This document shows, in pieces, positions 2,522-16,054 of a stretch of 23,400 bases of DNA. Every line of letters starts with the position of its first letter. The stretch's first letter is position 1. The stretch comes from a virus. Both the position numbers and the translations under genes were made by a program. The notes under the pieces were generated by a model that saw only the letters and a program-made list of their open reading frames with translations, searched no databases and was not told the origin of the DNA. The stretch covers positions 1-23,400 of the IMG/VR virus record IMGVR_UViG_3300046535_001342. One strand, 5' to 3'.

Positions 2522-3499
2522 TTACGTTAGAGCAGTAATAATGCCATGTGCAGCTTCGTTACCTACCTCAATACCGCCCTCCCAAATAATCAGGCGAGCT
2601 TCAGAGTGACCGGTCACAGCCAACTCTTTCTGGCGGGTAGATTGCAGATCCTTAATGCTTACATATTCTGGGTCAATAAGCATCATCGTAGCTGCATTAG
2701 AAAAACGATCTGGAACAATCTGAATCTCACCAAAGTCAGATTCATAGAAGTCAATTGAATTGATCAACTTCTTGTCGTCCCCATCCTTGTACTTGGTAGA
2801 ATACCCAGTAAAGGTCTTGGAGATAGTACGCTTTACGCTAGCTCCACAAAGACCGTACTTTGGTTCACCACCAGAAGTCCAGCATGCTTGAATAACAGTA
2901 TTCAGCATGTCTTCAGTGATAGTACGAGTCGTTCCAGGAACATGGGCAAGATTCGGATAGCCATCAGTCGTACCTGACAGCGTAGGAGCAGCACCAGTCG
3001 CAGCACCACGCGAAGCATTGGTAATGATAAAACATTCAAAACCAGCAGTTTCACGAGTCGTTGCACCATCAGCTGCACCAGGAATAGCTGGCAGATTGGC
3101 AAGGAGACGATACTCCTTGTCACGCTTTAGTTCCTTAAGTTTATAGGTGACTTGCTTAGAAAGCTTCTCAATATTCGCTGCACCGTTAATGACATTAGCG
3201 GTATCAGAAACACGCACCAACTTATCCATAATCTGGGTATAATTGGCACGACGAGAAGCAACGTTAGCCGCGTCTACAGCAGGAGCATCATCACCTTCTG
3301 CAACCTTGTTAGCGGTATCAACTGCCGCCAACGTGAGCAAGGGCCATTCAAATTTATCATTCGTAGCCTTGCTTCCCTGACCAGCAATCTTGCTTAGAAA
3401 GGGAGTTTCAGTCGGAGAAATAAGATTCTCCATGTCTGAAAGATCTTCGCGGATAGTCTTCGAATCATACGTCTGTAGTGCTGCAGCATTGACAGCCAT
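2522..3499 (-). CDS. Major capsid protein, SU10/DUF5309 type
   Basis: A 325-residue protein with the pattern of SU10-type major capsid proteins (DUF5309 family, HK97 fold). The N-terminus has YDSKTIREDLSDMENLISPTETPFLSKIAGQGSKATNDKFEW; the phrase ISPTETPFLS followed by a K..EW segment is characteristic of the family. Later features are residues 85-95 (ANYTQIMDKLVRVS), a helix rich in Lys (LSKQVTYKLKELKRDKEYRLL), a glycine-rich loop around 150-190 and a C-terminal HSEARLIIWEGGIEVGNEAAHG. Start ATG at 3499 with GGAG eight bases upstream. It follows the scaffold gene and precedes a strong stem-loop. This is one of the clearest assignments in the window. Confidence 0.9.
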   Translation of the reverse strand: MAVNAAALQTYDSKTIREDLSDMENLISPTETPFLSKIAGQGSKATNDKFEWPLLTLAAVDTANKVAEGDDAPAVDAANVASRRANYTQIMDKLVRVSDTANVINGAANIEKLSKQVTYKLKELKRDKEYRLLANLPAIPGAADGATTRETAGFECFIITNASRGAATGAAPTLSGTTDGYPNLAHVPGTTRTITEDMLNTVIQACWTSGGEPKYGLCGASVKRTISKTFTGYSTKYKDGDDKKLINSIDFYESDFGEIQIVPDRFSNAATMMLIDPEYVSIKDLQSTRQKELAVTGHSEARLIIWEGGIEVGNEAAHGIITALT

Positions 3500-3628: not shown

Positions 3629-4570
3629 TTACTTTTTGCGGTCTACAATAAGCAGTGCAGCGATATCATCTACTTTACCAGAAGACTTTGCTTTATTAAG
3701 CAAGGCCTGCTGAATCTTGCGATTTTTATCCATTGCATTAGTTGCAGTAGATTTTCCAGTTGGGCGAAGCATACCTTTAAGTTGCTGTGCAGCCGGTTTT
3801 GGCATTTTCTGTTTACCCACATGATTCATCCACTGAACAGCAGCATGCAACACACGCATTGCACGTGGATCAACAACTTCATCAACTTCCTTTGGGGAAT
3901 AGCCAAATTCACCAGCTACTCTAACAAAATCAGAAAGAATAACCTTAGCCTTTTCAGGGTCTTTAAGCTCAGGAATGTATCGGACAAGTTCCTGGGCACC
4001 TTCCTTGGCTTTCTCCTGAATAATATTCACATTCAGCATTTCTTGTTGGTCAGCCAAAGCTTGCTGCTGTCTACGAATACTATCTCGACGCGCTTCATTT
4101 TCTCGTTGTTTATCACGCTCAAGCAAATAACGTCCCGGGTCCTTAGCTCGAAGCTCATCCCAGTTAATATTCGGGCTAGCATTTTCAGCAATAAAAGCAT
4201 CCAACTGCTTTAGACGCTCAACCTGGATATTCAAATTCTTTTGCAATTCACCAGTATAAGTGTACATATACTGACGGGCTGCATTAGCTTCCTGGAGTCG
4301 CTTCTCAATAGCGCCTTCGCCAGCAAACCTAGCTTTTAGATCCTTGATCTTTACAGGCTTAGTCTCATTATCAACCGTAACATCAATTTCAAGTTCATCT
4401 ACATTGACGTCTTCATCAGATGCTTCTTCTGTTTCTTCTTGTTTATCTGTAGTCTCTGATTCTGTACTTTCCTGTACAACTTCCTCTTCTGAATCTTCTT
4501 CAGTCCCGGTCTCATCGGCAGGTTCTCCACCTACAACCATCATTTTAGCAATTTCATCAATATCAGGCAT
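3629..4570 (-). CDS. Capsid scaffolding protein
   Basis: A 313-residue protein with the composition and position of a phage scaffold. The first 65 residues are extremely acidic (runs of E, D, S, T), the middle (about 85-190) is a long charged helix with predicted coiled coil (RLQEANAARQYMYTYTGELQKNL..., ERDKQRENEARRDSIRRQQQALADQQEM), and the C-terminus is basic (KNRKIQQALLNKAKSSGK). Scaffold proteins typically use a basic C-terminus to bind the capsid protein. It lies between portal and capsid genes, the usual scaffold place. Start ATG at 4570 has AAGGA upstream and overlaps the previous gene by 8 bases. No protease motif is seen. Confidence 0.8.
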   Translation of the reverse strand: MPDIDEIAKMMVVGGEPADETGTEEDSEEEVVQESTESETTDKQEETEEASDEDVNVDELEIDVTVDNETKPVKIKDLKARFAGEGAIEKRLQEANAARQYMYTYTGELQKNLNIQVERLKQLDAFIAENASPNINWDELRAKDPGRYLLERDKQRENEARRDSIRRQQQALADQQEMLNVNIIQEKAKEGAQELVRYIPELKDPEKAKVILSDFVRVAGEFGYSPKEVDEVVDPRAMRVLHAAVQWMNHVGKQKMPKPAAQQLKGMLRPTGKSTATNAMDKNRKIQQALLNKAKSSGKVDDIAALLIVDRKK

Positions 4571-4796
4571 GTTCGATCATCCTTACATCATTTGCTAATT
4601 TTACTAGACGTCCACGAAACATATCAACCATTTTAGATTCTAGATACTTTTCTTCTCGAGTAATTGGATCCTCTGAATTAACCATTTCATACGCAATATC
4701 AAGCTTAATAGACTTCATAATTGCATCAAAATCAGGATGGTCAACCAGTGCCCTAATCATTTGTTGACGGCGTACTTCAAGCTCAGTCAGGGACAC
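4563..4796 (-). CDS. Small protein between portal and scaffold
   Basis: A 77-residue helical protein, not recognised. It is charged (LTELEVRRQQMIRALVDHPDFDAIMKSIKLDIAYEMVNSEDPITREEKYLESKMVDMF). The start is GTG at 4796 with a strong AAGGAGG five bases upstream; it overlaps the portal gene end by 14 bases and the scaffold start by 8 bases. Similar short genes occur at this place in other phages with P22-type portals. It may help head assembly; this is inferred from context only. Confidence 0.65.
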   Translation of the reverse strand: MSLTELEVRRQQMIRALVDHPDFDAIMKSIKLDIAYEMVNSEDPITREEKYLESKMVDMFRGRLVKLANDVRMIEHA

Positions 4797-6939
4797 CAGA
4801 TCCTCCTTCTATATCTTTAGCAGCTTGAGCCTCCAATGAAGCATCGAGTTGCTGTTTGGTGGCCTGGACTTTAGCTACGTTTACAGTGAAGTCCAACAAA
4901 GCTTTATCGCGCTCAAGATCATCTTTCATAACCATTTGAGTCTTATCTACTTGAGTCTTAGCCGTAACAGTAGCCAACTGCATTCTAAGGTCTTGTATCT
5001 GACCTTGATATTTACGATTAGTTTCAGCCATATCCGTTTGATACTTAAGTTGAGCCTTCTGGGCTTCAACTTGTACCATTTGCACCATAGCCTTTTGTGA
5101 ATCAACTTGAGCTTGCAAGGCCTGCTGTTGCATAGATTGCTGGGCCTGTTGAGCTTGCTGGCTCTGTTGCTGAGCTTGCTGGTCAAAAGCCTTGATCTGG
5201 TCAGGCGGTATAAATGGAAAATACTTATCATAATCCCGAATACCAGACAAACGAAGAATAGTCTTAAGACTCTCCCTCACTTGCGCCCAACCACATACCG
5301 TATTGGAATAACCAAACTTCTCCATAATCTGCATCTGCATGGGGAGAAGTTGCGCCAGTGTCTGTTTCTTTTCGTCAATTTGCCCAGAACCTAGTCCAAC
5401 ATTTGATCTAATATTTAGTTGATCATGCCACATTGTTGGATCAACCTGATAGAAACCATCAGGAAGCGATATAGACTGTTTGTCCTTAATAATGTAGATA
5501 GCAGTTTTCAGTATGCACATCATCATACTGGTTACACCAGTCTCAGCCAAATTCCGTGCCATCATTTCGACACGAGCATCTGAGCCTTGGACTGCAGCCT
5601 GAGCAGCTACATGTGTGGTAGATTGCAATGCATCTGGATCAATACCTTGTGACATACGAGTAACGCCAGTACGTTGCTCAGTAATCGTATTCAAATATTC
5701 TAAAACCGGGAGCGTCTGACCAGCCACAAATGGAGTCGTTAATTCATTAATCTGACCCATTTGTCGTACACGAACAATCGAACCGATCTGACCATTCATC
5801 AGATCCTCAAGGTTCACCATTGTCTCATTGGCTTCAGTACGGGGGCTATTTACCAAAGCTACGTTATCAATAATGCCCCGCATAATTGCAGTTTGAGCAT
5901 CTTGATCCTGTATTGTGTCTTCAGCTAGACATATCGGGTGCAATACATGTGGTTGTAGATCGGATTTAAAGATAGCATATGGTGCAAAGTTAGCTGGCTC
6001 ATCTGCCAGCAACTCATAGCCTGTACCGCCCAGAACCAAACGACGAAGTTCGGCAATGCCATCTCCATCAGCGTCGATCCTTATGAAAGCAGTGGTGATT
6101 CCAATCACTCGAGCAGATGGATCAATACTACCAGTATCGTGATCATCAATATCAGTGAAATTATCGCCGTGCCGTTCAGTGTTCTCAGCATTATAGGAAT
6201 AGTTATCTAGATCCTTGACTTTATCAAAGTCAAAGCCAGCTGATACCATTTCTGATACAGTTTTATTCTCCCGACGACCACAGACATAAGCATCGTCTAC
6301 ACAAATCGCATTCGAATTAATAAAGAACTCTTCCGGTGGGATAGCCACCAAGCTCCACTTAACTTTCTTGCGCAGCTTGGTTATAACGGTCTCTTTACCA
6401 TCCGACTCGGTAGGTTGACCCTGCATCATGGGTATTACATTGTTGTCAGTCGGAGGAGGCATCGTGTAGACAGTGTGAACAGGAACGTCCACCTTCTCAG
6501 CATAGACTTCCATAACCCCAATTTTGGCCTTCAAACTGTCCGTCATTGCCTCTATAAGGGCAGTATAGCCACCATATTTGCCATACACATTATTACAATA
6601 TTTAGTGGCTTGAGAACAAATTAGCTGATCCTCTTCATAATCAGACCAGAATTCACCAATATCGTCAGTTTGAGTAAAAACGCGGGCTAAGGATGGAATC
6701 ACAGACTTAACTGTATCCCGGACCTTAGAAACTACAATCTGTGATCGCCCAGGTGTAGCAGGTATGTCCGTTTCTCCGCGATAATAACGATCCGCTTTCT
6801 CACGTTCCCCTTGCAATTGCCGAGCAGTATAGTCTATAGCCGCTTCAATTGCTGAAAAAGCAATCTGCTGCACATCCTCAGGCTTAAGGGCCCTAAGTTG
6901 TGGATATGTTTCAGATACTGGGTCGTTTTTACCGAACAC
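4783..6939 (-). CDS. Portal protein, P22 type
   Basis: A 718-residue protein close in length to the P22 portal (about 725). It forms the dodecameric ring through which DNA enters the head. Features: an N-terminal helical region with ERADKYYRGE-like sequence (QGEREKADRYYRGE), SQIVVSKVRDTVKSVIPSLARVFTQTDDIGEF typical of the P22-portal family, a central wing and stem part with RTEANETMVNLEDLMNG, and the C-terminal 130 residues rich in Gln (from about residue 588), predicted as coiled coil, matching the barrel of long portals. The start is GTG at 6939, overlapping the Tad2-like stop codon as TAGTG, with GGGGGAA upstream. Confidence 0.88.
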   Translation of the reverse strand: MFGKNDPVSETYPQLRALKPEDVQQIAFSAIEAAIDYTARQLQGEREKADRYYRGETDIPATPGRSQIVVSKVRDTVKSVIPSLARVFTQTDDIGEFWSDYEEDQLICSQATKYCNNVYGKYGGYTALIEAMTDSLKAKIGVMEVYAEKVDVPVHTVYTMPPPTDNNVIPMMQGQPTESDGKETVITKLRKKVKWSLVAIPPEEFFINSNAICVDDAYVCGRRENKTVSEMVSAGFDFDKVKDLDNYSYNAENTERHGDNFTDIDDHDTGSIDPSARVIGITTAFIRIDADGDGIAELRRLVLGGTGYELLADEPANFAPYAIFKSDLQPHVLHPICLAEDTIQDQDAQTAIMRGIIDNVALVNSPRTEANETMVNLEDLMNGQIGSIVRVRQMGQINELTTPFVAGQTLPVLEYLNTITEQRTGVTRMSQGIDPDALQSTTHVAAQAAVQGSDARVEMMARNLAETGVTSMMMCILKTAIYIIKDKQSISLPDGFYQVDPTMWHDQLNIRSNVGLGSGQIDEKKQTLAQLLPMQMQIMEKFGYSNTVCGWAQVRESLKTILRLSGIRDYDKYFPFIPPDQIKAFDQQAQQQSQQAQQAQQSMQQQALQAQVDSQKAMVQMVQVEAQKAQLKYQTDMAETNRKYQGQIQDLRMQLATVTAKTQVDKTQMVMKDDLERDKALLDFTVNVAKVQATKQQLDASLEAQAAKDIEGGSGVPD

Positions 6940-7181
6940 TAATCATCTTCCCCCATAACATCTTTTCTATTCAATGTAAACCAATCATCGGCTAGTATAT
7001 CAGTTTGTGATGCAAGCCACGGTACATTTTTATCCTGTACCGTTTTCATATAAAGATAGGGCAAATCGACATCAACCTCGGGTTTATACAATCCAACCCA
7101 CATACCCTTACCATTCCAACCACTACGAGCGACCAAATGCCCGCGTTTAATCTCATCCAAAGCTATACTGAAGGTACTCAT
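6939..7181 (-). CDS. tad2: Tad2-like anti-Thoeris protein (DUF2829)
   Basis: An 80-residue protein matching DUF2829. The hallmark blocks are ARSGWNGKGMWVGL (residues 18-31), PYLYMKT (41-47) and VPWLASQTDILADDW (53-67). Family members called Tad2 bind and sequester the cyclic ADP-ribose signal of Thoeris defence (1''-3' gcADPR); some also bind CBASS signals. That knowledge comes from the family; activity here is inferred. The gene is inserted between the large terminase (4-base ATGA overlap) and the portal (TAGTG overlap), so it is translated with the late genes. The length is normal for the family and no key block is missing. Late timing is odd for a counter-defence gene, though read-through from other promoters is possible. 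Confidence 0.88.
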   Translation of the reverse strand: MSTFSIALDEIKRGHLVARSGWNGKGMWVGLYKPEVDVDLPYLYMKTVQDKNVPWLASQTDILADDWFTLNRKDVMGEDD

Positions 7182-8473
7182 ACATATGTCCCTGCTGAAG
7201 CACGTGCTATTGGTTTGGACCAGTCACTTTTAAGCCAGATTCTGGCTGCATTTTCGCTCATTCCCATAATAGCGGTTCTAAAAGCATCGGCACCATGGGA
7301 CGCCCAGTTGTGCAGTGGGACTTGTGCTAGCACATCGTTCTTTTCAGAATATTGTGTTTGGTACATGCGCAAGCAGTTGATGCCCATCGCGCAGTTCTTT
7401 TCATCAAAATAGGCCCTATTAAACATGAGCCGAACAGCATTAATACCATCGTCTATTTTATGCTTTTCTCCAGCAACCGCGGTTAAGCCTCGCTCTTGCA
7501 TAAACATTAATCTAGACTTCCCGGACTGCAATTCTCGAGCCCTTGCATCGTGTGGAAGCAAATGCATATCTATTACGTACGGTAGTTTCCGTGTATGATC
7601 AATGTAGTGGCTAAGCGCCATACCCGTATTCTGGTAATAATGAATAAAGTGCCATTCGCTTCCAATTATTTGGAAAATCCATAGCGCCATAGCATCAGAA
7701 ATGCCCAGGTCCCAGCCACAATACACATTTGCAGCCGCGTCGTGGTGTACATTCGCTATTCTCTTGTCCGCATACGCGCGTTGGATTTCCTTCGCATAGT
7801 ACGCACCTTTAAACGCCGCCGCGAAATCGCATTCGAATTCTCTAGAATATGTGCTTTCATCCATCAATCGTAGATTGGCGGCCAGTTCTGAAGCAGGTAG
7901 TATGCCGGTTTCCGACGCTTTAAGCATCAAATGAAACCACTCATCTTCGTGCTCCAAAGCATCCAACCACAATTTGTAAAACGCATCATGCCCCTTCGGC
8001 GTGCCCAGGAACATTGTTCGGCCCTGCCTATCCGATAGTGCCGGCCGTACAACCTCTTCCCAGATCTTGGGTGACATCGACGCAAATTCATCGATTACTA
8101 CAATATCGAAATAAAGCCCCCGCAGCCGATCCTCGTTCTCGCTCCCATAAAGTTTAATTCTTCCCCCATTCGGAAATTCCACGCGCAGATCGGACTCGTA
8201 AAACTTACATCCGGGTATACCACTGGTATATTGTTTGAGGTACGTCCACGCTATATCCTTGGCTTGGCTAAAGGTTGGAGCAATGTATGCCCCCCGCGGA
8301 TTGGGCTTTTCGCACGACAGCACGCCCTTAATAAGCTCGTTGATAGCTGCAACCGTTTTACCCGCCCGTCTGTGCGCAACAACGATCTTGAAGCGCCGAT
8401 CCGAAGCATGGAACGCTTTGAAATATATGCGCGGGTTATACGGTATGCTTATTTTCATTTCATGATATATCAT
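7178..8473 (-). CDS. terL: Terminase large subunit
   Basis: A 431-residue DNA packaging motor. The ATPase part shows Walker A AHRRAGKT (33-40), Walker B DIVVIDEF (123-130) with catalytic Glu, and coupling motif FLGTPKG (155-161). The nuclease part shows WDLGISD (254-260, Asp255 and Asp260), LPHDA (306-310, Asp309) and HGADAFR (393-399, Asp396), the usual set of metal-binding acids in an RNase H-like nuclease. Together these cut and translocate DNA into the procapsid. It starts at 8473 in an ATGA overlap with the small subunit, without a clear ribosome site, so translation is probably coupled. GCG/CGC-rich codons here look slightly different from the AT-rich neighbours, possibly a different origin. 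Confidence 0.95.
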   Translation of the reverse strand: MIYHEMKISIPYNPRIYFKAFHASDRRFKIVVAHRRAGKTVAAINELIKGVLSCEKPNPRGAYIAPTFSQAKDIAWTYLKQYTSGIPGCKFYESDLRVEFPNGGRIKLYGSENEDRLRGLYFDIVVIDEFASMSPKIWEEVVRPALSDRQGRTMFLGTPKGHDAFYKLWLDALEHEDEWFHLMLKASETGILPASELAANLRLMDESTYSREFECDFAAAFKGAYYAKEIQRAYADKRIANVHHDAAANVYCGWDLGISDAMALWIFQIIGSEWHFIHYYQNTGMALSHYIDHTRKLPYVIDMHLLPHDARARELQSGKSRLMFMQERGLTAVAGEKHKIDDGINAVRLMFNRAYFDEKNCAMGINCLRMYQTQYSEKNDVLAQVPLHNWASHGADAFRTAIMGMSENAARIWLKSDWSKPIARASAGTYV

Positions 8474-8991
8474 TTAGAGGCATCCAACTCCGTTGGTAAA
8501 GCACTGGTGTGGTCGTCAGTGCCTAGGGTTTGTTCTAAAGCATCGAACAATAAAGGATTGGACTTTTCATAAATAGTTTCCGTCGACCCTTCGCCCCATT
8601 CGATACTAATCTTCGATGGCATATTCTTATCCGTTTGCTTGTCCATAAAGCCTAGGATCTTCGCTTTGGCTACAGTCGCGGCTACGGCCGCTGCGGGATT
8701 CTCTTGATTTACCGCAAACTCTCGATCCTCATCCAGCTGCGCTATGACTCGTTCCCTCGTCTGAAGCAGCTGACCCCGCAATATGCTTAGATTGCGTTCA
8801 ATCTCCTCTAGAACGTATGTGCTTTCGAAAAGCTTGGACGCCATCAACTTATTGGGTCGTTCAAATCCAGCCAGTCTTAAAGCACGGATTAATGGAACGC
8901 CAAAGGCGTAGTTGGCCGCAAACGAGCGCATCTTCACTCGTTCCTCGGCCTCTAAGCGTTCGACATCGTTTATTGGGACTACTTGGATCAT
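8470..8991 (-). CDS. terS: Terminase small subunit
   Basis: I place the start at ATG 8991, giving 173 residues. The frame extends up to a GTG at 9042, but those 17 extra codons coincide with two palindromes and a sigma-70-like promoter. The protein has an N-terminal helical part (MIQVVPINDVERLEAEERVKMRSFAANYAFGVPLIRALRLAGFER...KLFES) that resembles the DNA-binding helices of small terminases, then a long helix (LEEIERNLSILRGQLLQTRERVIAQLDEDREFAV) and AAVAATVAKAKILGFMDK, a common small-terminase motif that also occurs in P22-like proteins. It recognises the packaging site and recruits the large subunit. It directly precedes and overlaps terL. No ribosome site is seen at either start. Confidence 0.8.
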   Translation of the reverse strand: MIQVVPINDVERLEAEERVKMRSFAANYAFGVPLIRALRLAGFERPNKLMASKLFESTYVLEEIERNLSILRGQLLQTRERVIAQLDEDREFAVNQENPAAAVAATVAKAKILGFMDKQTDKNMPSKISIEWGEGSTETIYEKSNPLLFDALEQTLGTDDHTSALPTELDASK

Positions 8992-8995
8992 AAAT

Positions 8996-9026
8996 ACAGT
9001 ATGCACTGTTTTTAGTCTATCGTCAA
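8996..9026 (-). promoter_or_regulatory. Candidate late promoter
   Basis: On the minus strand TTGACG (9026-9021) and CATACT (9003-8998) are separated by 17 bp. The predicted start falls near 8991, exactly at the ATG of the small terminase, which would give a leaderless or nearly leaderless message. The inverted repeat ACAGT-ATGC-ACTGT (8996-9009) overlaps the -10 box. It would serve the whole minus-strand late operon. Match to consensus is moderate (5/6 and 4/6), so other starts remain possible. Confidence 0.5.
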
Positions 9027-9027
9027 T

Positions 9028-9042
9028 GTGACATATTGTCAC
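9028..9042. promoter_or_regulatory. Perfect palindrome upstream of late promoter
   Basis: GTGACA-TAT-TGTCAC is a perfect inverted repeat with 6-bp arms, one base upstream of the -35 box. This is the position expected for an activator site or for a repressor that blocks polymerase. The protein that binds it is not known. Confidence 0.55.
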
Positions 9043-9163: not shown

Positions 9164-9271
9164 GAATTGATAGAGATTATAGGTTCTATAGAATTGATGA
9201 TTTATATATTGTCTATAGAATTGATAGAGTATGTAGAGTTGATATAGTATATAGAATTGATAGGGATTTAT
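9164..9271. repeat. Twelve degenerate 9-bp AT-rich repeats
   Basis: The sequence can be cut into twelve consecutive 9-base units, nearly all ending in ATA, with GAATTGATA as the clearest unit. Full GAATTGA cores begin at 9164, 9191, 9218 and 9254, with GAGTTGA at 9236; spacings 27, 27, 18 and 18 are all multiples of 9. Low GC content and tandem repeats next to iterons is the classic picture of a DNA-unwinding element. The period of 9 is also three codons, so an open frame on the minus strand shows a tripeptide pattern, which I consider a by-product. Confidence 0.7.
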
Positions 9272-9422
9272 ATTGAATGAATATTCAATCAGAATATATT
9301 GAATGAACATTCAACCAGGATTATATTGAATGAGTGTTCAGTCGATATTATATTGAATGGCCGTTCAATCAGAAGATATTGAATGAATATTCAATCAGAA
9401 TTCTATTGAATGAATATTCAAT
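9272..9422. repeat. Six 18-bp inverted-repeat iterons
   Basis: Six copies of ATTGAAT-N4-ATTCAAT begin at 9272, 9298, 9325, 9352, 9378 and 9405, so spacings are 26, 27, 27, 26 and 27 bp, about 2.5 helical turns. Centres are GAAT, GAAC, GAGT, GGCC, GAAT and GAAT. Left arms are identical in all; right arms vary slightly (ATTCAAC in copy 2, GTTCAGT in 3, GTTCAAT in 4). Regular spacing and dyad symmetry suggest a dimeric protein bound along the array, as at phage or plasmid origins or multi-operator control regions. A seventh copy lies at 13372-13389. Confidence 0.85.
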
Positions 9423-9466
9423 TAGATCATTGAGCTATGCGAAAAAGACATGATAGATATGATCAA

Positions 9467-9531: not shown

Positions 9532-9554
9532 GAAAACAAATGAAAGATCAAATC

Positions 9555-9878
9555 ATGTCAAAGTCAAAGAAACTTTATAAGTTCAATCTTGAACTTTCTA
9601 AAACACTAAATCTTTCTCAATTCAACCCTTCTTGTAAGGCCTTTATTAAAGGTCTTTATAAGAAATCTAAAGAAGAAGATTTTCAAGGTTTCACTGGTGA
9701 AGATCTTTTGAAGTATTGTGTCAAAGAAGGTTTGTGGGAAACGAAACAAGAACCTTCAAAGTATCACACAACGTTCGCCTATTATGTGAAACTTTTGAAA
9801 GAAAAAGGTGGTTTTCAAGTTTGTGGCGAAAGTGTGAATAATGAAGTAGAATTTCTTGAAGAAGATATTGAAGAATAA
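9555..9878 (+). CDS. Small basic protein, possible winged helix
   Basis: A Lys-rich protein of 107 residues if it starts at 9555 (an ATG at 9540 would add five residues); neither start has a strong ribosome site. I do not recognise the family. The middle (GFTGEDLLKYCVKEGLWETKQEPSKYHTTFAYYVKLLKEKGGFQV) has the helix-helix-strand pattern of a winged-helix DNA-binding domain; the N-terminus is basic and the end is acidic (EVEFLEEDIEE). It is transcribed alone from a family promoter and closed by a strong terminator, next to six iterons. By position it is a good candidate for the protein that binds the iterons. This is an inference; it may equally be an unrelated early protein. Confidence 0.7.
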   Translation: MSKSKKLYKFNLELSKTLNLSQFNPSCKAFIKGLYKKSKEEDFQGFTGEDLLKYCVKEGLWETKQEPSKYHTTFAYYVKLLKEKGGFQVCGESVNNEVEFLEEDIEE

Positions 9879-14137: not shown

Positions 14138-14554
14138 ATGCCTAACCACTACGAAATGATCAAAGAATTTCATGAAAAGTTCGGTCTTGCCTATTTCGGC
14201 CCGCCCAAGAATCTAGATTTTGCAGTAAGTGAGTTTCGTACCCAATTCATGGATGAAGAGCTTGCTGAATACATATTTGCTACAACCATTAATGATTTAG
14301 AAAAGCAGCTCGATGCTTTAGTAGACTTAGTTTATGTAGCACTTGGAACTGCCTATATGCAGGGCTTCGATTTCAATGAGGCTTTTAGACGGGTGCATGA
14401 AGCGAATATGAAAAAGGTTCGAGCAGTGAGCGCAGATCATTCATTGAGGAATAATATCCTTGATGTAGTTAAGCCAGAAGGCTGGCAAGCACCAGACCTT
14501 AGTGATCTTATTAACGCAGTTAAATCTGTTAGTGGAGATGATAATGCTGAGTAG
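14138..14554 (+). CDS. MazG-like nucleotide pyrophosphohydrolase
   Basis: A 138-residue all-alpha protein similar to phage phosphoribosyl-ATP pyrophosphohydrolase-like or MazG-like enzymes. Characteristic parts are FHEKFGLAYFGPP (11-23), a metal-binding acid group FMDEELAEY (37-45; Glu40, Glu41 and Glu44) and the segment QLDALVDLVYVALGTAYMQGFDFNEAFRRVHEANMKKV (57-94), a strong family signature. Members remove pyrophosphate from nucleoside triphosphates; the substrate here is not known. Because the operon also has a dCMP-hydroxymethylase-like enzyme and dCMP deaminase, dCTP or dUTP are attractive substrates, which would give monophosphates for them. Start ATG at 14138 with AGGAG nine bases upstream. 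Confidence 0.8.
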   Translation: MPNHYEMIKEFHEKFGLAYFGPPKNLDFAVSEFRTQFMDEELAEYIFATTINDLEKQLDALVDLVYVALGTAYMQGFDFNEAFRRVHEANMKKVRAVSADHSLRNNILDVVKPEGWQAPDLSDLINAVKSVSGDDNAE

Positions 14555-14870
14555 AGAGCGGGCGGCAGAGATTCTTCGTGAAACTGCTGAACTAATCAAC
14601 GGTGAGCGGGCTAAGAACTATGGCGAGCCACAGCAGAGCTTTGAGAATATAGCGCGGCATTGGTCTATATTCCTAGGAATAGAGATAACTCCAGCGGATG
14701 TGGGGTTAATGATGATTTTAATGAAGGTATCACGCAATGGGCGGGATCGTTTTAAGCGGGATAATTTCGTGGATATATGTGGCTATGCTTCATTGATTGG
14801 TAGCGAAGGTATTAAGCCACCGCAGATGAAAGCAGCTTATGAAGAAAAGGAAGAAGAAGATGACATATAG
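14544..14870 (+). CDS. DUF6378 family protein
   Basis: A 108-residue protein from ATG 14544, which has GGAG six bases upstream and overlaps the previous gene by 11 bases; the open frame extends further upstream without a better start. The motifs are RAKNYGEPQQSFENIARHWSIFLG (about 21-44), ITPADVGLMMILMKVSRNGRD (46-66), and KRDNFVDICGYASLI (69-83). These are the pattern of the phage DUF6378 family, whose biochemical role is not known to me. The acidic C-terminus (YEEKEEEDDI) overlaps the start of the next gene. Always near nucleotide-metabolism genes in phages that I recall, so a role there is plausible. Confidence 0.75.
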   Translation: MLSRERAAEILRETAELINGERAKNYGEPQQSFENIARHWSIFLGIEITPADVGLMMILMKVSRNGRDRFKRDNFVDICGYASLIGSEGIKPPQMKAAYEEKEEEDDI

Positions 14871-15681
14871 TGCAGATACTGCCTGGTTGGCAGCAATTCA
14901 AAATGTGTGTTTAGGGGGTGAAGCGGTCGCACCCCAAGCTTCAACGGGGGCCAATGGTCGAGTATCGTTTGAACTTATAGCTCATACTATGGAATTTGAT
15001 ATGGGCTATCCGATCGTAACGTGTAAGCCTAATACATCCTGGATATACATGGCTGCAGAAGCTATATGGATTTTGAGTGGTGAGAACTCATTGTTCTATA
15101 GTCAAGAGATTCAACGGATCCAGGCGCCATACTCGGATGATGGTAAGAAATTGTCAGGCGCTTATGGGCCCAGTTTTCAGTCCCAACTGCCCTATATCCT
15201 TGATCTGTTTGCTCGAGACATTAACACTCGGCAGGCAGTGCTTACAATCTGGAAGCGGAGCCCTAAGCCCAGTAAAGATATTCCATGCACAGTAGCACTT
15301 CAGTGGCTTATTCGAAATAATAAACTTCACTGTATTGTAACAATGCGGTCTAGTGATGTGGGAATGGGTTTGCCTTATGACATGTTCAGCTTTGCATGTA
15401 TGAGTGCAGAAATAGCAAGTAAACTGGGTGTTGAACTTGGTATATGCTATATCACAGCTGGATCAAGGCATATCTATGACAATCAGATAGCCACACTTAA
15501 AGACCTGCCTATTACAGTAGCGGCACTGTCACCCAACTATGAGAAGTTGGTAACGTGGAAGTGGCCAGCATATAAAGAAGTATTAAGGACTATCTCTAAG
15601 TATACTTGGACTAATGATATTGAACGTGCTGATGCTCAACTCATGGCTAAAACACTTATTTGTGGAGGCGAACTTGACTAG
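14860..15681 (+). CDS. Thymidylate synthase-fold enzyme, dCMP hydroxymethylase-like
   Basis: I start it at ATG 14860 (273 residues), with AAGGA nine bases upstream and in overlap with the previous stop codon. The fold is thymidylate synthase: IPCTVALQWLIRNNKLHC (141-158) with the catalytic Cys143, the MRSSDV block (162-167), and GSRHIY (201-206). Three positions differ from true thymidylate synthase and agree with T4 dCMP hydroxymethylase: Thr144 after the Cys (His in thymidylate synthase), Asp174 in LPYD (Asn in LPFN), and Gly-Ser at 201-202 (Gly-Asp). The Asn-to-Asp exchange is known to shift specificity to dCMP. It therefore probably acts on dCMP, making hydroxymethyl- or methyl-dCMP. Many phage genes of this kind are labelled thymidylate synthase. 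Next gene overlaps its end. Confidence 0.85.
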   Translation: MTYSADTAWLAAIQNVCLGGEAVAPQASTGANGRVSFELIAHTMEFDMGYPIVTCKPNTSWIYMAAEAIWILSGENSLFYSQEIQRIQAPYSDDGKKLSGAYGPSFQSQLPYILDLFARDINTRQAVLTIWKRSPKPSKDIPCTVALQWLIRNNKLHCIVTMRSSDVGMGLPYDMFSFACMSAEIASKLGVELGICYITAGSRHIYDNQIATLKDLPITVAALSPNYEKLVTWKWPAYKEVLRTISKYTWTNDIERADAQLMAKTLICGGELD

Positions 15682-16054
15682 ACCATCTATAGATGAGACT
15701 ATGATGCAAATTGCCTTAACATTAGCTAAGCGTGGCACTTGCTTAAAAAAGAAAGTAGGGGCTGTTGCACTAGATAAAGACAATCGTCTTATATCCGGTG
15801 CTTATAATGGGGCGCCAAAGGGTTGGACACATTGTGACGAGATTACACCATGTCTAGCGTTCAGTGATCCAGGAATATCATGCAGTGCTTTGCACGCTGA
15901 ACAGAACTTATTGCTTCATTGTAATCCTAAGGACATAGCTACTGTATATGTTACAGAAGAACCTTGCCATAAGTGTCGAATGCTTTTGCATAATGTAGGA
16001 AATATTCGCATAGTGTATTTACAGGATGGCCAGATAACAGAGGACATAGATTAA
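15674..16054 (+). CDS. dCMP deaminase
   Basis: A 126-residue zinc enzyme that converts dCMP to dUMP. Zinc and catalytic residues are His74-Ala-Glu76 (HAEQN) and Cys98, Cys101 (PCHKC), with the nucleotide-binding YNGAPKG (44-50). The most likely start is TTG at 15674: GGAGG lies five bases before it, and the product then begins MTRPSIDETMMQIALTLAKRGTCLKK, as in other dCMP deaminases (MTRPSWDEYFM..A..A.R.TC). Upstream ATGs at 15614 and 15632 give an unrelated N-terminus, and the overlap with the previous gene is 8 bases. Together with its neighbour it decides whether dCMP is modified or turned into dUMP. Confidence 0.9.
   Translation: MTRPSIDETMMQIALTLAKRGTCLKKKVGAVALDKDNRLISGAYNGAPKGWTHCDEITPCLAFSDPGISCSALHAEQNLLLHCNPKDIATVYVTEEPCHKCRMLLHNVGNIRIVYLQDGQITEDID

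Follow-up and report, generated by a model that had tools for sequence, protein, structure and literature searches.

A small gene lying between the genes for the terminase large subunit (terL) and the portal protein of a 23.4-kb virus record, the whole of which we call the window, encodes a member of the Tad2 family. With a probability of roughly 0.7, we consider it to be a sponge that takes up a Thoeris signal of the ADP-ribose type (gcADPR or His-ADPR), optional cargo at the terL-portal junction that is translated along with its packaging and head neighbors. This reading builds on the protein's family, fold and conserved residues, the coupling of its gene to the operon, its optional presence and the sponge families found in relatives, and from these we infer signal binding, trigger, timing and benefit.

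Beginning with an ATG on the minus strand, the gene at 6939-7181 is the sole match to PF11195 ("Thoeris anti-defense 2-like") in the record (E 1.6e-21, 77 bits against a cut-off of 25), with residues 3-68 of its 80-aa product covering positions 2-71 of the 73-position profile and a C-terminal tail of about 10 residues falling outside the conserved part. PADLOC returned no match for this protein. We modeled it as a monomer with 57 homologues (pLDDT 91.8). Foldseek gave 24 PDB matches at E<=0.001, every one of them a Tad2 or AcrIIA7/HgmTad2 chain, and VIA aligned ten Tad2 entries at Z 12.5-13.4 over 70-72 residues. The best of these is 8v3e_F (Z 13.4, 1.3 A, 71 residues), and alignments of 71 residues were also obtained to complexes with His-ADPR (9eib), gcADPR (8smg) and cADPR (8kbj).

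Seven residues are invariant in 80 close homologues, which we aligned from the best 80 of 488 IMG/VR relatives and three named phages, and all seven are kept here (R19, W22, G24, W55, Q59, D61 and D66). The model places W22 and G24 in the loop joining beta1 to beta2 and W55 in the loop that follows beta4; Q59 and D61 fall in the next helix, and R19 and D66 at strand ends. The review PMC12043709 names elements of the gcADPR pocket, and by order of elements these two loops and the helix correspond to pocket parts described there; the predicted pocket placement of the five residues they carry thus derives from element order in that source, not from ligand modelling. The product is an ordinary protein, another member of Tad2. 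Its arrangement is less ordinary.

Residues 32-42 form an 11-residue stretch where 62 of 81 sequences have 13. An insertion between beta2 and beta5 is said in PMC12043709 to bind cyclic dinucleotides, and, with only 11 residues in this stretch, the window protein is missing it; compared to HgmTad2, which belongs with SptTad2 to the subgroup with the long beta2-beta5 insertion, it has about 33 residues fewer. The short stretch leads us to predict an ADP-ribose-type specificity. Solved complexes with cGG exist for HgmTad2/AcrIIA7 and SptTad2 (8kbk, 8wjd), and the WLASQTD motif of the window protein is closer to these two than to ModTad2, which would suit a Tad2-family sponge for another nucleotide signal, such as the cyclic dinucleotides of CBASS. 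We regard this as unlikely, given that the insertion described in PMC12043709 is absent, that the alignment with the HgmTad2 chain (0-103) covers 71 residues of the window protein, and that SPO1 Tad2, also shorter than HgmTad2, is reported in PMC11722364 not to bind 3'3'-cGAMP.

Among known proteins, SPO1 Tad2 (gp34.65; 8sme, 8smf, 8smg) resembles the window protein in family match and fold (Z 13.3, 1.5 A, 71 residues) at 39% identity over the aligned residues, the window protein being shorter by about 15 residues across that span. ModTad2, from a Myroides odoratus prophage and solved in complex with His-ADPR (8v3e, 9eib), is the best VIA match at 41% identity but carries PSVSD where the window protein has ASQTD, and the linker is shorter in the window protein. 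HgmTad2/AcrIIA7 (8kbi, 8kbj, 8kbk) shares the ASQTD motif and reaches 49% identity over 71 aligned residues. Another Tad2-like protein predicted from sequence is the 97-aa P015 of the lytic podovirus Sinorhizobium phage AP-20-A (PMC13299392).

The window holds a head-and-packaging operon on the minus strand (Table 1), in which terL lies upstream of the tad2-like gene and the portal gene downstream. The initial annotation had described a Tad2-like gene nested between the two in a late-type operon, and both the PF11195 match and the stop-start overlaps bear this out. It had also placed overlaps of four bases with terL and three with the portal gene; the former is correct, but the latter is a single nucleotide. 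An earlier portal start is impossible, as a TGA interrupts the portal frame two codons upstream of the GTG. Both junctions have ribosome-binding-like sites inside the preceding gene: AGGGA 7 nt upstream of tad2, within terL, and GGGGGA 9 nt upstream of the portal gene, within the codons for the Tad2 tail. A consensus scan, which is a weak test, found no sigma-70-like site on the minus strand from 8998 to 6616. Taken together, the overlaps, these sites and the lack of a promoter match suggest that tad2 is probably expressed together with the packaging genes, and we call it "late" from the content of the operon. G+C content (tad2 40.7%, terL 47.3%, portal 44.0%, window 42.1%) is not telling on acquisition.

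Table 1. The tad2-like gene, its junctions and the neighboring packaging and head genes, in window positions
Feature	Position	Strand	Basis or remarks
Tad2-like sponge gene	6939..7181	minus	80 aa; Pfam domain residues 3-68; predicted function
ATGA, tad2 start/terL stop overlap, 4 nt	7178..7181	minus	sequence
TAGTG, tad2 stop and portal GTG start, shared base 6939	6937..6941	minus	sequence
terL, terminase large subunit	7178..8473	minus	PF03237 E 9.1e-11; phrog_2 E 6.6e-40
Probable terS, terminase small subunit	8470..9042	minus	phrog_5334 E 0.0024
SU10-type portal	4783..6939	minus	PF23899 E 2e-141; phrog_1216 E 2.5e-110
Scaffolding protein	3629..4570	minus	phrog_3927 E 3.1e-33
SU10-type major capsid protein	2522..3499	minus	PF17236 E 1.2e-79

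The relatives of this phage that we surveyed do not carry the gene at this position. A search with the window portal alone found no relative, and one with the window TerL alone found a single locus, L082, whose TerL and portal are 66% and 45% identical to those of the window; the protein preceding its TerL shares 59% identity over 149 aa with the probable terS product. The terL-portal junction of L082 is 40 nt long and holds no Tad2. Using three-sequence alignments of TerL and portal as queries (the best 80 loci of at least 583, and the best 80 of 102), we fetched 159 loci, of which 89 have terL and portal on the same strand within 4 kb and 67 remained after dereplication. Tad2 lies between terL and portal in 0 of these 67, and in one it lies between terS and terL. 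Their terL-portal gaps range from an overlap to 3.8 kb, and a same-strand ORF of 45-130 aa occupies the gap in 24.

We conclude that tad2 is optional cargo and not a fixed part of the operon. The initial annotation had proposed a survey of conservation between terminase and portal; presence proved sporadic, with the junctions of relatives empty or filled differently, which is the pattern it had named as counting against its own proposal. The gene is thus "locked into the operon" as far as expression goes, by the overlaps and the lack of a promoter match, but not in evolution, as relatives do without it. Nor do these results support reading into its position a second function, presence in the virion or early expression by a route of its own.

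The same survey bears on whether the product has a structural or packaging role in the neck or head and resembles Tad2 merely in fold. Its gene lies between terL and portal, and the VIA entry following the Tad2 chains is a neck chain of phage 812 (8qkh_S), a weak match at Z 6.5, rmsd 5.4 A and 10% identity. A virion structural protein would be expected to be conserved along with TerL and portal, and this one is not, its gene being absent from the terL-portal junction in 67/67 related loci and in three inspected Jedunavirus sisters. With ten Tad2 entries scoring at twice the neck chain's Z or nearly so (12.5-13.4) and the invariant residues of the family kept, we find a structural role highly improbable.

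Jedunavirus, a phage group unrelated to that of the window, offers a parallel. The Klebsiella phages IME346 and P5026 have the order terL-DUF2829-portal, in which the middle gene is Tad2-like and overlaps its neighbors by 4 nt on both sides (ATGA at both ends in IME346); they differ from the window in having a portal of another family (DUF1073). Among the sisters whose gene maps we inspected, KB2 and JD001 pass directly from terL to portal with a 2-nt gap and no Tad2, the flanks of KB2 matching, and Geezett has an HNH endonuclease gene in this place and no Tad2. For other sisters, absence was judged from coverage only: 45 records cover at least 80% of the IME346 stretch, with full coverage confined to IME346 (two records) and P5026, and the remaining 42 reach 86-92%, which is what absence of the 246-nt gene would produce. 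In a FastTree phylogeny, the Tad2 proteins of the window and IME346 are not sisters, with modest supports along the window path (0.66-0.88) for so short a protein. The two may have been acquired separately.

Other predicted sponges occur at the junctions flanking terL. The terL-portal junction holds an Acb2/Tad1-hairpin protein in L208 (PF24729, E 1e-14) and L222 (PF24729, E 1.2e-9); in L197 the protein encoded there matches PF13876 (E 1.1e-21). Between terS and terL, L192 has a hairpin gene, and L034 and L293 have a hairpin gene followed directly by a Tad2 gene. With the L208 hairpin as query, we found further hairpin genes adjoining the portal gene in L266, L280 and L273, adjoining terL in L316 and 50 nt before terL in L308. 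PF13876 is the Acb4 sponge family (PMC11722364), and PF24729 also matches T4 vs.4, named acb2 in PMC12657218. The hairpin model gave no Foldseek match at E<=0.001, nor did a search of PDB sequences with the hairpin profile yield an Acb2 or Tad1 chain at E<=0.1, so the Acb2/Tad1 label comes from PF24729 and an hhalign match over 24 columns (81% probability). For the Acb4 label, the basis is PF13876 together with a weak hit (E 0.02) on the structure of Acb4. The known members, Acb2 (T4 vs.4) and Acb4 (SPO1), belong to families unrelated to Tad2 and bind CBASS signals; the copies in the same or neighboring junction of L208, L222, L197, L192 and L034 are predicted sponges.

An HMM scan of the 67 loci found 8 sponge genes in 7 loci: three between terL and portal, three between terS and terL (in two loci) and two after the capsid gene. 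Compared to other same-strand small genes (40-130 aa), sponges are enriched beside terL (6/34 vs 2/327 elsewhere; Fisher p 1.1e-5, or 8.9e-5 with the tandem hairpin and Tad2 of L104 counted once instead of as two genes), as they are at the terL-portal junction alone (3/26 vs 2/327, p 0.003), although these p-values are optimistic because two of the three families were picked after being seen in the slot and then counted over the same loci. We note that the window itself was left out of this count and that gene calls came from a custom ORF chooser with labeled genes forced in. Curated Pfam models, applied to 50 of the 67 whole records, placed 9 sponge genes in 8 records above cut-off, leaving out a sub-cut-off Tad2 match in the L124 record (20.2 bits). 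Five of 8 Pfam-passing insertions lie at the two terL junctions, where assumed gene densities would predict about 9-11% (p 2e-4 to 6e-4); this test is likewise optimistic.

We tentatively propose that the terL-flanking junctions of SU10-portal phages are a recurrent dock for interchangeable sponges of at least three unrelated families, wired through stop-start overlaps into the operon, and that a similar arrangement arose separately in Jedunavirus; on balance we consider this reading less likely than not. The dose and timing of a docked sponge would follow those of the capsid and portal proteins, which would be the triggers of TIR and CBASS sensors. Across titles and abstract openings, with subscription papers mostly outside the coverage, our literature search found no description of sponge genes docked at the terminase-portal junction.

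These counts also weigh against a rival account, in which tad2 is a neutral passenger, a mobile small gene at a tolerant junction whose site is uninformative on timing or trigger. Such an account is compatible with sponge activity, though not with our claim on timing. It would fit the many contexts in which named phages carry Tad2 homologues, the lack of significant closeness of Tad2 to TerL in a Tad2-anchored sample (below), and the unrelated genes that the terL-portal junction takes up, among them the HNH endonuclease of Geezett, an N6/N4 DNA methylase in L149 and ORFs of unknown function. The clustering of sponges beside terL is not what it would predict, subject to the optimism of both tests, and we give it somewhat less than an even chance.

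The methylase gene of L149 (6563-7669) matches PF01555 at E 6.6e-31. A recurrent 100-aa ORF in the terL-portal junction of L159 (7269-7571) matches phrog_4689, and ORFs in L172 and L179 resemble it, as judged by eye; it is a candidate sponge or packaging accessory.

In a wider sample, closeness of Tad2 to TerL did not reach significance. We scanned 80 IMG/VR records anchored on Tad2 with phrog_2 and found TerL in 31, or 27 without the duplicates L029, L039, L053 and L055. Tad2 lies on the TerL strand in 20 of these 27, and among the 22 of at least 15 kb it lies within 5 kb of TerL in 8, compared to 4.9 expected (p 0.096). We therefore do not extend closeness to TerL to Tad2 genes at large and restrict the junction claim to the phage group of the window. 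Among named phages, terL-Tad2-portal occurs in 1 of 15 inspected Tad2 regions (IME346), and in the remaining regions the neighbors of Tad2 are genes for lysis or replication, or unknown ones. Within 3 kb of a hairpin homologue in Flavobacterium phage FCV-1, neither a terminase nor a portal gene is annotated, which again suits a passenger.

The initial annotation held that a sponge is usually needed early, which made a place in a late operon puzzling. This premise is weakened: the major head protein activates Thoeris of staphylococci and is also recognized by that of streptococci (PMC12578639), and since Thoeris can be triggered by this late product, late expression of a sponge is not paradoxical. 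Structural and assembly proteins are described as triggers of other systems as well, the prohead protease for a CBASS system (cited in PMC12409349) and the portal YonE for SpbK (PMC11984713). Against this, 3'3'-cGAMP-binding (Acb4) activity appears early in SPO1 (about 15 min; PMC11722364), and PMC11984713 describes nip, which counters SpbK, as an early gene that must precede YonE.

By analogy with PMC12578639, the major capsid protein of the window may be the Thoeris trigger. Transcription of the late operon would then yield Tad2 just ahead of portal, scaffold and major capsid protein; the capsid protein would activate host TIR sensors, and a stoichiometric sponge from the same message, rising together with the trigger, would soak up the signal and keep the NAD-depleting effector off until assembly is complete. 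Counting against a sponge made with the head genes, evidence of triggering by the capsid comes only from certain Gram-positive Thoeris systems, the published antagonists (SPO1 Acb4 activity and Nip) appear early, closeness of Tad2 to TerL falls short of significance (p 0.10) and only one of the named-phage regions has the terL-Tad2-portal order. The question this raises can be tested: is a sponge needed before its trigger, or made alongside it? The empty, Tad2-bearing and HNH-bearing junctions of Jedunavirus are a ready natural comparison. Should head operons prove to have sponges wired into them, the search for counter-defense genes ought to include late structural modules, and the small ORFs next to terL would be candidate sponges of unknown kinds.

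Sponge genes also tend to occur close to one another. Sponges other than Tad2, counted over 65 dereplicated Tad2-anchored IMG/VR loci, number 7 within 1 kb of Tad2 (L045, L032, L020, L021, L074, L034 and L022; 137 kb of sequence) and 3 farther away (410 kb; p 0.0036). Five of the near ones passed a Pfam check, as did all 3 farther ones; L022 failed, and the L020 sponge, on the other strand, was outside this check. With Pfam-passing sponges only, 5 are near compared to 3 farther (p 0.028). With Tad2 as query we also fetched 44 bacterial-genome loci; in six of them an Acb4 or hairpin gene adjoins Tad2 or is fused to it, and Pfam confirmed each of the six. Fusions of Acb4 and Tad2 in a single ORF occur in Pasteurella phage Pmp13 and in a Campylobacterota MAG.

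Single ORFs at L096:3192-3761 and L361:4677-5264 join a PF13876 domain to PF11195 and are possible two-signal sponges. Tandem pairs of a hairpin or Acb4 gene with Tad2, the genes touching or overlapping, are found at L293:3960-4384, L034:4702-5213, L349:4983-5440, L347:4738-5252 and L097:707-1509.

Elsewhere in the window, a nucleotide-metabolism cluster on the plus strand (14138-16054) comprises PRA-PH-like, DUF6378, thymidylate synthase and deoxycytidylate deaminase genes. Tandem arrays occupy 9164-9427, between terS and a divergent gene at 9540-9878. They include about six copies of a 27-nt unit resembling TTATATTGAATGAATATTCAATCAGA (9268-9427), and the arrays are a possible two-way promoter, operator or origin.
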